Origin: Senegalimassilia anaerobia JC110
GTDB taxonomy: Bacteria > Actinomycetota > Coriobacteriia > Coriobacteriales > Eggerthellaceae
Assembly (NCBI RefSeq): GCF_000236865.1
Contig: NZ_HE611014.1
Coordinates: 512,130 to 576,129 of the forward strand
DNA length: 64,000 nt
Reading direction: 5' to 3'
Position 1 is the first letter of the stretch. Every line of letters starts with the position of its first letter. Shown piece by piece: positions 363 through 13,051 of this stretch. The position numbers and the translations under genes are program-made. The notes beneath the pieces were generated by a model, which saw nothing but the letters and a program-made list of their open reading frames with translations, was not told the origin of the DNA and did not search any database.

Positions 363-470
363 ATAAGCGACGAATGGGGACGCGCGACAGGCGCCGAAGC
401 GCTGCCATGCATCCTTGGTGCTGCGGAATGCCGCAGCAGGCACCGACCGGGGGCCGCGTGCTCTCGTGCT

Positions 471-655
471 CCTGTTCTTCCATCCGGACTGTAACCGTTG
501 GTCCTGGATTCTCACCAGATCAGCCTGACGGGCTGCGACGCTGCGGCCACGGGGCCGCCTGCTTGCAACCTGTCAGGGTCGCGGACTTCGCCCTGCTGCT
601 TCGTGCAGCGTGGAACGTCACCGCCAGTGAGGGATTTCACCTCGCCCTGAACAGA
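471..655 (-). promoter_or_regulatory. FMN riboswitch (RFN element)
   Basis: The minus strand carries the conserved blocks of the RFN element in order: TTCAGGGCGAGGTGAAATCC, CACTGGCGGT, a variable hairpin, GCAGCCCGTCAGGCTGATC, TGGTGAGAATCCAGGACC, and AACGGTTACAGTCCGGATGG with AAGAA after it. FMN binding is expected to favour the terminator at 331-362 and switch off ribD. The spacing from aptamer to terminator is about 110 bases. Confidence 0.93.
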
Positions 656-669
656 TATCTTAGTTGGGA

Positions 670-5155: not shown

Positions 5156-5183
5156 TTGCTTTATCACTCTACTGTGCTAAAGT
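5156..5183 (+). promoter_or_regulatory. Possible promoter of the histidine operon
   Basis: TTGCTT (5156-5161) and TAAAGT (5178-5183) are 16 bases apart in the only AT-rich patch before hisZG. I found no T-box or histidine-rich leader peptide here. Confidence 0.4.
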
Positions 5184-5293
5184 ATCGGACAGCACTTGGG
5201 AATGATGCTGCGGAAGCGCCCCGCGCTCGCGCCCGTTCCCTCATCTGCAAATGACCACGGGCCGATGCCCGCAACCGCACGATGAAAGGCAGG

Positions 5294-7006
5294 ATGGATC
5301 AGATGAACTTCGTGACGCCTTCGGGTTTCCGCGACGTGCTCACCGACGAGGCGGTGCTGCGCGAGCAGGCGGCCCAAGCGGTGCAGGCCAACATGGCGGC
5401 CAAAGGCTATCTTCCGGTGGAAACGCCCACGCTCGAGGTGATGGACGTGCTGCAGGCCGGCGGCAGGCTGCCGGGCACCCCGTTCAAGCTCTTCGACGCG
5501 CGCGGCGACCTTCTGGCCATGCGTCCCGACGTCACGCTGCAGATCGCCCGCATGTGCGCCACGCGCCTGGCGGGCCAGCCCGGGCCGTTCCGCTTCCGCT
5601 ACATGCAGCGGGTGTTCCGCGAGGCCGAGGGCCAGACGCGCGCCGAGCCGCGCGAGACCACGCAGATGGGCGTCGAGCTCATCGGCCAGGCGGGCGCGGC
5701 GGCAGACGCCGAGGTGGTGGGCCTGCTGGCCGAATCGCTCAAGCTCGCCGGCGTTGCCGACTTCAAGATCGCGCTCGCATCGGTGTCGGTGCTGCGCGCG
5801 CTGCTCGCAAGCTGCGGTGCCGCACCGCAATGGCGCCAGGCGGTGCTCGATGCGTACCACACGTCGAACTTCGTCACGCTCGACGAGCTGACCTCAGGCG
5901 AGGGCGCGCAGGGCGTTCCGCCGGTGTTCGCCCAGGCCATCGGCAAGCTCGCCCGCATCCGCGGCGGGCGCGCCGTCATCGCCGAGGTGCGCGAGCTGGT
6001 GGCCCCGCTGGGCTGCGAGACGGGCCTTGACGGCCTGGAGCAGGCGTTCGACCTGCTGGAGGCCGCGGGCCTGGCGGACAGCATCCAGGTCGACTTCTCC
6101 GTCATGAGCAGCTTCGACTACTACACCGGCATCGTGTTCGAAGCCTACGCGCCGGGGCTGGGAAGCCCGCTGGGCAGCGGCGGCCGCTACGACAACACCA
6201 TCGGGGCATATGGCGAAAGCCGTCCCGCCGCCGGCTTCGCGTTCTTCCTCGAGCGCGCCATGGCTGCTGCCGCGGCCGCCGATGAGCGCGCCGCATCCGG
6301 CACCGGCCAGCGCCCGCTGCGCATCGCCGTGCCGAAAGGCTCGCTCAACGCCGATTCCATCGCGTGCCTGGCGGCATGCGGCCTGGACGTCACGGGGCTC
6401 GATAACCCCGGTCGTCAGCTCATTATCCGCAACCCGGGCGTGGAGTACATCATCGTGCGCCCCTCCGACGCCCCGGCGTTCGTGGAGCTCGGCGCGGCCG
6501 ATTGCGGCATCTGCGGCGAGGACTCGCTGCTCGAGGCGCAGCCCGAGGTGGTTGAGCTTGCCGACCTGAAGTTCGGCTCCTGCCGCTTCGTGGTGGCCGA
6601 GCCCGCTGGCGCCGCCGATCAGACCGCCGAGCACTACCGTCGCCTGGGCTCCATCCGCATCGCCACGAAGTATCCCAACATCACGCGCGCCCATTACGCG
6701 AAAACCGGCACCCAAGTCGAGATCGTGAAACTGCACGGAAACATTGAGCTGGCACCATTGACTGGATTGGCCGAGCGCATCGTCGACATCACGGCCACGG
6801 GCACCACGTTGCGTGAGAACAACCTGGTCATCGTGGAGGATGTGCTGTCGTCGACGGCCCGATTCTTCGCCAACGGCACCTCGCTGCGCACCGATGCGCG
6901 CATCGTGGAGCTGGCCGACGCCATGCGCGCCGGCGCCGCGGCGGGCAAGTGGGAGGCGACGGTCATCGCCGGCGGCGTGCAGTCGCCCGAGCCCGCAACA
7001 GAATAA
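5294..7006 (+). CDS. hisZG: Fused HisZ-HisG: ATP phosphoribosyltransferase with regulatory subunit
   Basis: This 570-residue protein joins two proteins that are normally separate. Residues 1 to about 340 are HisZ, a class II HisRS-like regulatory subunit: the family opening TPSGFRDVL, MRPDVTLQIAR, RYMQRVFREAE, and FDYYTGIVFEAY with GSGGRYD. From about residue 345 a short-form HisG begins (RIAVPKGSL) and continues to the PRPP loop DITATGTTLREN. Short HisG enzymes need HisZ for activity and histidine feedback, so a fusion fixes a 1:1 ratio. The reading frame is open across the junction with no frameshift. Starts at 5282, 5294 and 5303 are all possible; 5294 and 5303 are best placed relative to AAAGGCAGG. 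It is first in the his operon. Confidence 0.9.
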   Translation: MDQMNFVTPSGFRDVLTDEAVLREQAAQAVQANMAAKGYLPVETPTLEVMDVLQAGGRLPGTPFKLFDARGDLLAMRPDVTLQIARMCATRLAGQPGPFRFRYMQRVFREAEGQTRAEPRETTQMGVELIGQAGAAADAEVVGLLAESLKLAGVADFKIALASVSVLRALLASCGAAPQWRQAVLDAYHTSNFVTLDELTSGEGAQGVPPVFAQAIGKLARIRGGRAVIAEVRELVAPLGCETGLDGLEQAFDLLEAAGLADSIQVDFSVMSSFDYYTGIVFEAYAPGLGSPLGSGGRYDNTIGAYGESRPAAGFAFFLERAMAAAAAADERAASGTGQRPLRIAVPKGSLNADSIACLAACGLDVTGLDNPGRQLIIRNPGVEYIIVRPSDAPAFVELGAADCGICGEDSLLEAQPEVVELADLKFGSCRFVVAEPAGAADQTAEHYRRLGSIRIATKYPNITRAHYAKTGTQVEIVKLHGNIELAPLTGLAERIVDITATGTTLRENNLVIVEDVLSSTARFFANGTSLRTDARIVELADAMRAGAAAGKWEATVIAGGVQSPEPATE

Positions 7007-7162
7007 CAGCTGGTCAGGGCTTCGCGCCCGCAGGCGCCCAGGGGTCGGGCGCCGCAACGTCAAGGCCGCAGAGGCGCCTGCTCGCAGGCGCGGCCGCGAC
7101 AAGGTATCATCATGAAAGAGGCCGGAGGGGTCATCCGGCGTGTACATGGAAAGAAGGACAAC

Positions 7163-8485
7163 ATGCGTCGCGTCATCCTGAACAAAGGCGAGCAATTCTC
7201 CAACAAGCACCTCAAGCGCACGGGCGCGTTCAACGCCCGCGCCATGGAGGCGGCAACGAACATCATCGAGCAGGTTCGCGAACAGGGCGATGCGGCCCTG
7301 CGCGAGCTGACCGAGCGCTTCGACGGCGTTGCCATCGAGGACTTCCGCGTGCCGGCCGAGGCGATCGAGGCCGCCGCGGCGAAGGTCGATCCCAAAACCG
7401 AGGAGGCGCTCAAGAAGGCCGCCAAGCAGATCCGCGAGTTCCACGAGCGCCAGGTCAAGCAGAGCTGGTTCTCCGTGCGCGAGGACGGCGCCCTGGTCGG
7501 TGCGAAGGTCACCCCGCTTGAAAGCGTTGGCATCTACGTGCCCGGCGGCCGCGCGCTGTACCCGTCCACGGTGCTCATGAACGCTCTGCCCGCCGCGGTC
7601 GCCGGCGTTGAGCGCATCGTGTGCGTCACGCCGCCCACCAAGGACGGCAGCATCGACCCGGTGGTGCTCGAGGCCTGCCGCCTGTCCGGCGTCACCGAGA
7701 TCTACACGGTAGGCGGCGCGCAGGCCGTGGCGGCGCTGGCCTACGGCACCGAGACCATCGATCCGGTCTGCAAGATCACGGGCCCGGGCAACGCGTTCGT
7801 GGCGGCTGCGAAGAAGATCGTCTCCGGCGACGTGGGAATCGATATGATCGCCGGCCCCTCCGAGGTGTGCGTCGTGGCCGATGAGACCGCCGATCCCGCC
7901 ATGGTGGCCATCGACCTCATGGCCCAGGCCGAGCACGACCCGCTGGCAAGCTGCTATCTGGTCACGTTCGACGAGGGCTACGCCGACAAAGTCGAAGCCG
8001 CCATCGAGGGCCACATGAAGGCTTCCACGCGCGCCGAGATCACCACCGCCTCGCTGGCCGATCAGGGCCTTGTGGTCATCTGCGACTCCATGGAGCAGGC
8101 CATCCAGTCCGTCAACGTCATCGCCCCCGAGCACCTGGAGCTGCACTTCGACGGCGCGTTCGAGCAGCTCGGCGCCATCCGCAACGCCGGCGCCATCTTC
8201 GTGGGCGAGTGGACCCCCGAGGCCGTGGGCGACTACGTTGCCGGCCCCAACCACACGCTTCCCACCGGCGGCACCGCGCGCTATGCCTCGCCGCTTTCCA
8301 CCGACGAGTTCGTCAAGCACTCCAGTGTCATCCAGTATTCCGCGAAGTCGCTGGCAAACGACGCAGACGCCGTCATCGCCATCGCCCGTCACGAGGGCCT
8401 GTGGGCGCATGCCCGCAGCGTCGAGCTGCGTAAGGCCCTGGTGGAGACCGGCGACATCTATGGTTTGGACGGTGCCGATGAATAG
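7163..8485 (+). CDS. hisD: Histidinol dehydrogenase
   Basis: HisD carries out the last two steps of histidine synthesis, oxidising histidinol to histidine with NAD and zinc. The 440-residue product shows the family series [57 protein letters not shown] and the late [10 protein letters not shown] with its catalytic Glu-His pair. I chose ATG 7163, which has GGAAAGAAGG before it, over an upstream start at 7112. The stop codon overlaps the hisC start by eight bases, indicating translational coupling. A 156-bp GC-rich gap separates it from hisZG. Confidence 0.95.
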
Positions 8486-9648: not shown

Positions 9649-10242
9649 ATGAGCGAACGCGTTGCGCGCATCGCGCGCACCACGAAGGAAACCGATATCG
9701 ACCTGTCCGTCGGCCTTGACGGCACGGGCAAAACGGACGTGGAGACGGGCATCGGGTTTTTCGACCACATGCTCACCGCGTTCGGGCGCCACGGCCTGTT
9801 CGACCTGCAGGTGCGCTGCAAGGGCGACCTTGAGGTGGACGGCCATCACTCGGTGGAGGATACGGGCATCGTCATGGGGCAGGCGTTCGCGCAGGCGCTC
9901 GGCGACAAGCGCGGCATCCGCCGCTTCGGCGACATCGCCATGCCCATGGACGAGGCCCTCATCATGGCGGCTGTGGACATCTCGGGGCGCGGCCAGCTGT
10001 ACTGGGACGCCGATGTGCCTGCGGTGATGGTGGGCGCCTTCGACGCCACGCTGGCGAAGGAGTTCTTCATCGCCTTCGCCGCCAACGCCGGCGTCACGCT
10101 GCACATCCGCCAGCTTGCCGGCGAGAACACGCACCACGTCATCGAGGGCATGTTCAAGGCGGTGGCGCGCGCCATGCGCCAGGCCTGCGAGCCCGACCCT
10201 CGCATGGGCGACGCGTTGCCGTCCACGAAGGGGATGCTATAA
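9649..10242 (+). CDS. hisB: Imidazoleglycerol-phosphate dehydratase
   Basis: The 197-residue protein is a monofunctional HisB dehydratase, the usual length when no phosphatase domain is fused. It has the duplicated manganese-binding histidine motifs GFFDHM and DGHHSVEDTGI in the first half, and GENTHHVIEGMFKA in the second. GAGAAAGG precedes the ATG. Since HisB lacks the phosphatase domain, a separate histidinol phosphatase is expected elsewhere; none is in this operon. Confidence 0.95.
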   Translation: MSERVARIARTTKETDIDLSVGLDGTGKTDVETGIGFFDHMLTAFGRHGLFDLQVRCKGDLEVDGHHSVEDTGIVMGQAFAQALGDKRGIRRFGDIAMPMDEALIMAAVDISGRGQLYWDADVPAVMVGAFDATLAKEFFIAFAANAGVTLHIRQLAGENTHHVIEGMFKAVARAMRQACEPDPRMGDALPSTKGML

Positions 10243-12718: not shown

Positions 12719-13051
12719 ATGCAAACCGAGATTCCCGAGCTGAAATACAACGCCGATGGGCTGATCCCGTGCATCGTGCAGGACGTGGAAACGCGCGAGG
12801 TGCTCATGATGGCGTGGATGAACGCCGAAAGCCTGGTGCTGACGCTCGAGCGCGGCGAGACGGTGTTTTGGAGCCGCAGCCGACAGGAGCTGTGGCACAA
12901 GGGCGCCACCAGCGGCAACACGCAGAAGATCGTCGAGCTTCGATATGATTGCGATGCCGATACGCTTCTGGCCCTCGTGCATCCGGCGGGCCCCGCGTGC
13001 CACACCGGCGCCACCAGCTGCTTCTTCCGCACGCTGGCCGAGCTCGAGTAG
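12719..13051 (+). CDS. hisI: Phosphoribosyl-AMP cyclohydrolase
   Basis: The 110-residue protein is stand-alone HisI, which opens the adenine ring of PR-AMP. It has [23 protein letters not shown], the Asp-rich CDADTLL metal site and the cysteines of [13 protein letters not shown]. There is no fused HisE (PR-ATP pyrophosphatase) domain and no hisE in the window, so that step must be encoded elsewhere. It is the last gene of the his operon, 12 bases after hisF. Confidence 0.95.

Follow-up and report, generated by a model that had tools for sequence, protein, structure and literature searches.

The first gene of the histidine operon of Senegalimassilia anaerobia JC110, hisZG, combines in one reading frame a HisZ core and a short-form HisG, both complete, the regulator and the catalyst that usually form the first enzyme of histidine synthesis as two proteins. 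We propose that this gene very probably encodes a complete short-form ATP phosphoribosyltransferase (ATP-PRT; EC 2.4.2.17) in one chain, regulated by its HisZ half and held together by a covalent 1:1 tether. The advance is a modest one: the fusion is real and conserved, being shared by nearly all gut Actinobacteria of this kinship, appears to have evolved repeatedly, is mechanistically expected, and belongs to a type that was already known. A single sentence in a 2022 paper names hisZ-hisG as one of the his gene fusions met with in various genomes (PMC9413887). We found no taxa, tree, linker or enzyme data on this fusion in that paper, and PMC1963479, one of the two sources that it cites for the fusion, makes no mention of hisZ. 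The literature searched, in which subscription journals are sparsely represented, yielded no account of the fused protein, of where it occurs or of its biochemistry.

One frame for a HisZ core and a short-form HisG

The window, i.e. the whole stretch of DNA that was analysed, comprises 64,000 nucleotides, and the features discussed are collected in Table 1. The frame runs uninterrupted to its TAA codon from either of two ATG codons. The ATG at 5294 is the better placed start, with the ribosome-binding context AAAGGCAGG, and its numbering is used here; the alternative in-frame ATG at 5282 adds four residues, giving the 574-residue reading in which the Pfam positions below are numbered. The junction of the two halves was inspected for a stop or a frameshift; none was present in the window, and the junction is also open in close relatives.

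Table 1. Features of the hisZG region (window positions).
Feature	Position	Strand	Details
24-bp near-palindrome CTTTATCACTCTACTGTGCTAAAG	5159..5182	.	candidate operator upstream of his operon
hisZG fused gene	5294..7006	+	570 aa, 60.0 kDa, TAA stop 7004-7006
HisZ (HisRS-like regulatory) core	5294..6271	+	residues 1-326; PF13393, TIGR00443, alignment to the genome's own HisS and to separate HisZ
Ala-rich linker	6272..6313	+	residues 327-340, about 14 residues; AAAADERAASGTGQR region
Short-form HisG catalytic domain	6314..7003	+	residues 341-570; PRPP loop VDITATGTTLREN
hisD (histidinol dehydrogenase)	7112..8485	+	PF00815 E 2.2e-168
hisB (imidazoleglycerol-phosphate dehydratase)	9649..10242	+	PF00475 E 8.9e-64
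hisI (phosphoribosyl-AMP cyclohydrolase)	12719..13051	+	near operon end; PF01502 E 2.1e-35

Pfam matches residues 15-325 to tRNA-synt_His, the HisRS core that HisZ shares (E 2.6e-73), and residues 393-549 to the HisG domain, PF01634 (E 6.3e-49; 166.4 bits against a cut-off of 25.5). Among the NCBIfam models, the HisZ model TIGR00443 scores 276.4 (cut-off 271.65) and the HisG model TIGR00070 scores 193.1 (cut-off 75.75). The original prediction of HisZ and HisG in one frame therefore holds, with both domains above their cut-offs and the frame open through the junction, and its assignment of the catalytic half to short-form HisG fits the evidence given below. A single chain of 60 kDa and a fixed 1:1 stoichiometry would follow from such a frame. 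An annotation of the N-terminal half as histidyl-tRNA synthetase (HisS) was rejected: the HisS model TIGR00442 scores 163.3, under its cut-off of 286.75; the anticodon-binding region, or C-terminal domain, is absent in the alignment to the genome's own HisS; and that protein, a bona fide HisS scoring 445.6 bits, has its gene on a different contig. The catalytic arginine of HisRS, found in the motif VRGLDYY of the genome's HisS, is a serine in the MSSFDYY of the HisZ half. The best relative of the HisZ half among solved structures is 3od1. The separate HisZ proteins of relatives carry a C-terminal tail of 44-124 residues beyond the core, and the fused proteins have no such tail. Two f14 fusions, L199:809-2266 (-) and L200:689-2086 (-), are missing a further stretch of about 80 HisZ residues (roughly 191-270 in the numbering of the window protein), and their HisZ half would represent a naturally minimised regulator.

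HisZ ends at about residue 326, and Pro341 (nt 6314) is the first residue of HisG. The original placing of the linker at about residues 335-345 was slightly late, since the Ala-rich segment and linker occupy residues 325-340. In the AlphaFold2 (AF2) model the helix continues to residue 335 and is followed by a loop (336-341) and by the first HisG strand at 342. Across 93 loci, a set in which some genes occur twice, the linker measures 8-54 residues (median 15) and has no conserved motif, with both flanking domains strongly conserved. The AF2 model of the whole chain, a monomer model built with 50 fused sequences, has a mean pLDDT of 91.3 and a pTM of 0.89, and its HisZ half superposes on HisZ/HisRS structures (3.8 A over 338 columns for L. 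lactis HisZ).

The C-terminal regulatory domain of the long-form type (HisGL) is absent from the HisG half: the catalytic domain stops near residue 549 and the chain at 570. The best matches among solved HisG chains include 11te and short-form chains such as 2vd2, 5m8h and 8oy0. In Psychrobacter arcticus HisG, Arg32 and Arg56 assist the departure of pyrophosphate (PMC9734150). The alignment with 5m8h_E, its numbering anchored on the Arg56-Lys57 pair named in PMC9734150, puts Arg374 of the window protein at the Arg56 position, which is Arg in all sequences examined, and Ser350 at the Arg32 position; the earlier statement that all HisG motifs are intact is not strictly right at the latter position. 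In nearly all native HisG proteins of Coriobacteriia, whether or not they are fused, this position likewise holds Ser, Ala or some other residue, which marks the substitution as a trait of the lineage and not an effect of fusion. Arg is retained there in Lachnospiraceae HisG and in the divergent HisG of a few Coriobacteriia. With Ser in place of Arg32, the enzyme may depend on Arg374 for catalysis more heavily than P. arcticus HisG does on Arg56, and so may most separate HisG proteins of Coriobacteriia on their own Arg at that position.

The histidine operon and its upstream near-palindrome

The fused gene is followed on the same strand by hisD, hisC, hisB, hisH, hisA, hisF and hisI; hisD, hisB and hisI were checked by Pfam, and hisC, hisH, hisA and hisF were assigned by reading their translations. 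No second hisG was found in the genome, which is 99.96% complete. The operon does not include hisE, and the genome has a single PRA-PH gene, located on a different contig; this probable hisE (L209:1423-1902 (+), on contig G000:C3) stands just upstream of a presumed phosphoglucosamine mutase gene, judged from the opening residues of its product. Upstream of hisZG no T-box or His leader reached the Rfam gathering threshold, and a simple scan for sigma-70 promoters and terminators returned nothing. Elsewhere in the window, an FMN riboswitch lies at 468-658 (-) (Rfam RF00050, 91.7 bits).

By chance, 0 occurrences of the conserved near-palindrome (CTTTAnCACTCTACTGTGnTAAAG) ahead of the operon are expected in the window. 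Allowing 0-2 mismatches, the element is also found ahead of most Coriobacteriia hisZ(G) loci examined, whether fused or not, and is absent upstream of the Lachnospiraceae hisZ loci examined. Its sequence can be read as two HisR-type boxes that overlap with a shift of 8 bp, the published HisR consensus being cacTTTAnnnnnnTAAAgtg (PMC9413887), and we offer as a suggestion only that it is a predicted HisR target. The genome's only TrpR-family protein, L210 (G000:C2:316234-316476; E 2.1e-18), is encoded away from the his operon and is a candidate for the HisR regulator. The genome has two extra copies of the near-palindrome, at G000:C3:201301-201324 and G000:C4:208092-208115; an operon for an amino-acid ABC transporter and a gene for an amino-acid permease are their neighbours.

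Distribution and number of origins

The original prediction called for a survey of Coriobacteriia, and in that survey the fusion proved nearly universal in Eggerthellaceae and frequent across the order, hence not unusual for this lineage. With the whole fusion as query, at least 109 of the 138 Eggerthellaceae genomes carry it (95 with one alignment across both halves and 14 with both halves in one frame), the remainder being mostly fragmentary contigs or genomes without the pathway. Two sister families were sampled as well: 45 of 61 genomes of one and 38 of 41 of the other have the fusion, and neither family showed a separate native hisZ/hisG pair. The fused genes of other genomes of the same genus are 92-93% identical and open at the junction, and the junction is likewise open in dozens of further species; named carriers include Ellagibacter isourolithinifaciens, Adlercreutzia, Slackia, Rubneribacter and Anaerotardibacter. 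Such recurrence across the genus and dozens of species excludes chance or a local sequencing error, and the evidence fits the Coriobacteriia origin claimed earlier. The fusion also matters for genome annotation, which may score hisZ or hisG as missing in Coriobacteriia.

In other families of the same order (f4, f7, f9, f10 and nearly all of f6) a separate hisZ stands directly 5' of hisG, as it does in every deeper family of the class that was examined, apart from f11, f13 and f14; such pairs often overlap or stand a few bases apart. A fusion was scored only when both domains matched in the same frame. A long stop-to-stop frame was discarded as the criterion, as L025 and L030 have long overlapping frames and separate genes. 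Several genomes of f1 and f7 (L003, L018, L020, L023, L202) lack the native type and have a divergent, Clostridia-like HisZ/HisG of the KGR type, which is separate except in L003, where it is fused; this looks like gene replacement in a few genomes of the order. One further divergent fused frame, L201:354-2129 (+) in genome G409, has a single stop codon within its HisZ part, either a sequencing error or the mark of a decayed gene.

A tree of concatenated HisZ and HisG (93 rows, quick method) requires six changes between the fused and separate states, an approximate count in which gain is not separable from loss; a single origin for all fusions is therefore unsupported. The fused groups are a Lachnospiraceae clade (8 rows, support 98), f11+f13+f14 (9 rows, support 98), L169 amid the otherwise separate f6, L003 amid the divergent Clostridia-like group, Eggerthellaceae, and f2+f3+f5. 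A tree in which the last two are constrained to a single group fits just as well (AU p 0.64); they may represent one event, so that the fusion likely had at least five origins in the sample. Most of the separate Lachnospiraceae pairs examined at the junction are in-frame with a single stop between them, an illustration of how readily fusions of this kind can arise.

Proposed mechanism and relation to known enzymes

Short-form ATP-PRT has been studied in detail: by itself HisGS works slowly and does not respond to histidine, and a HisZ tetramer placed between two HisGS dimers speeds catalysis and inhibits it when histidine-bound (PMC9734150, PMC10795190). From these characterised separate-gene enzymes we infer the activity, activation, feedback inhibition and quaternary structure of the fusion. 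The HisG half would convert ATP and PRPP to PR-ATP, and the HisZ half, a relative of HisRS, would serve as an allosteric activator through which histidine binding shuts the enzyme down. Four identical chains would replace the 4+4 octamer and form the same particle, each HisZ carrying its own HisG via a short linker at the place where the HisZ C-terminal tail was lost.

Other readings of the locus have some arguments in their favour. Neighbouring genes divided by a stop or a change of frame are frequent sites of sequencing or assembly error, and two adjacent genes do persist in some relatives, as would fit a pair of truly separate genes with a spurious join at the junction. However, considerably more than 100 independent genomes of the family have the fused frame, as do genomes of the sister families, and the linkers vary in sequence and length and so are not copies of one error; we regard this explanation as already refuted by the comparative data and give it practically no weight. 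It is also highly improbable that a single translation product is processed afterwards into HisZ and HisG, to yield the usual octamer of two proteins. The linker is variable and Ala-rich and might be cut by a protease, but no cleavage motif is conserved among the linkers, and the repeated formation and long retention of the fusion argue that the two halves are tolerated, or favoured, as one chain.

The HisZ half could instead be a mere structural or activating scaffold, or its regulation could be altered through loss of histidine feedback. The missing tail, compared with the separate HisZ of Coriobacteriia, and the internal loss in L199 and L200 point in this direction. Nevertheless, DYYTG and GGRYD around the histidine site are invariant or nearly so in 50 fusions, and tail-less HisZ is known elsewhere: the HisZ proteins of L. 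lactis and T. maritima have no C-terminal domain and are functional, and the naturally tail-less T. maritima protein still binds histidine, 1USY being the histidine-bound form (PMC10795190). We therefore consider altered regulation unlikely and favour a one-chain enzyme under HisZ control. On balance, we lean towards a wider account in which the fusion arose repeatedly, at least five times in the sample, and became fixed in Coriobacteriales, the HisZ tail giving way to a short tether each time; the product would be a one-chain, HisRS-regulated, homotetrameric ATP-PRT that parallels HisGL, with catalysis in Coriobacteriia depending on the Arg56-type arginine alone.

A natural HisZ-HisG fusion would fix the subunit ratio, and it offers a single construct for work on the way in which a relative of tRNA synthetases turns a distant active site on and off. 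Its existence further suggests that regulation of the first histidine step was brought into a single chain at least twice, along different routes. With the two-gene short-form enzymes of L. lactis, T. maritima, P. arcticus and Acinetobacter baumannii (1Z7M, 1USY, 5M8H, 8OY0) the window protein shares both domains, the hisZ-hisG order seen in many relatives, and the Arg56 position; its HisZ half resembles that of L. lactis and T. maritima in being a core without a C-terminal domain. It differs from the two-gene enzymes in having one chain instead of two, Ser in place of Arg32, and an expected homotetramer instead of a 4+4 hetero-octamer. The fusions of Lachnospiraceae (L054, L058-L063, L068, L070) have the same domain order, a tail-less HisZ and a linker of 12-17 residues, but they have an independent origin on the tree and their HisG retains Arg32 (KGR). 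HisGL, as in E. coli and M. tuberculosis, likewise combines catalysis and histidine regulation in one polypeptide; however, its regulatory part is C-terminal and the enzyme a homohexamer (PMC10795190), whereas the regulator of the window protein is N-terminal and HisRS-like. Since the regulatory domain differs from that of HisGL in both kind and place, the one-chain layout would be convergent.
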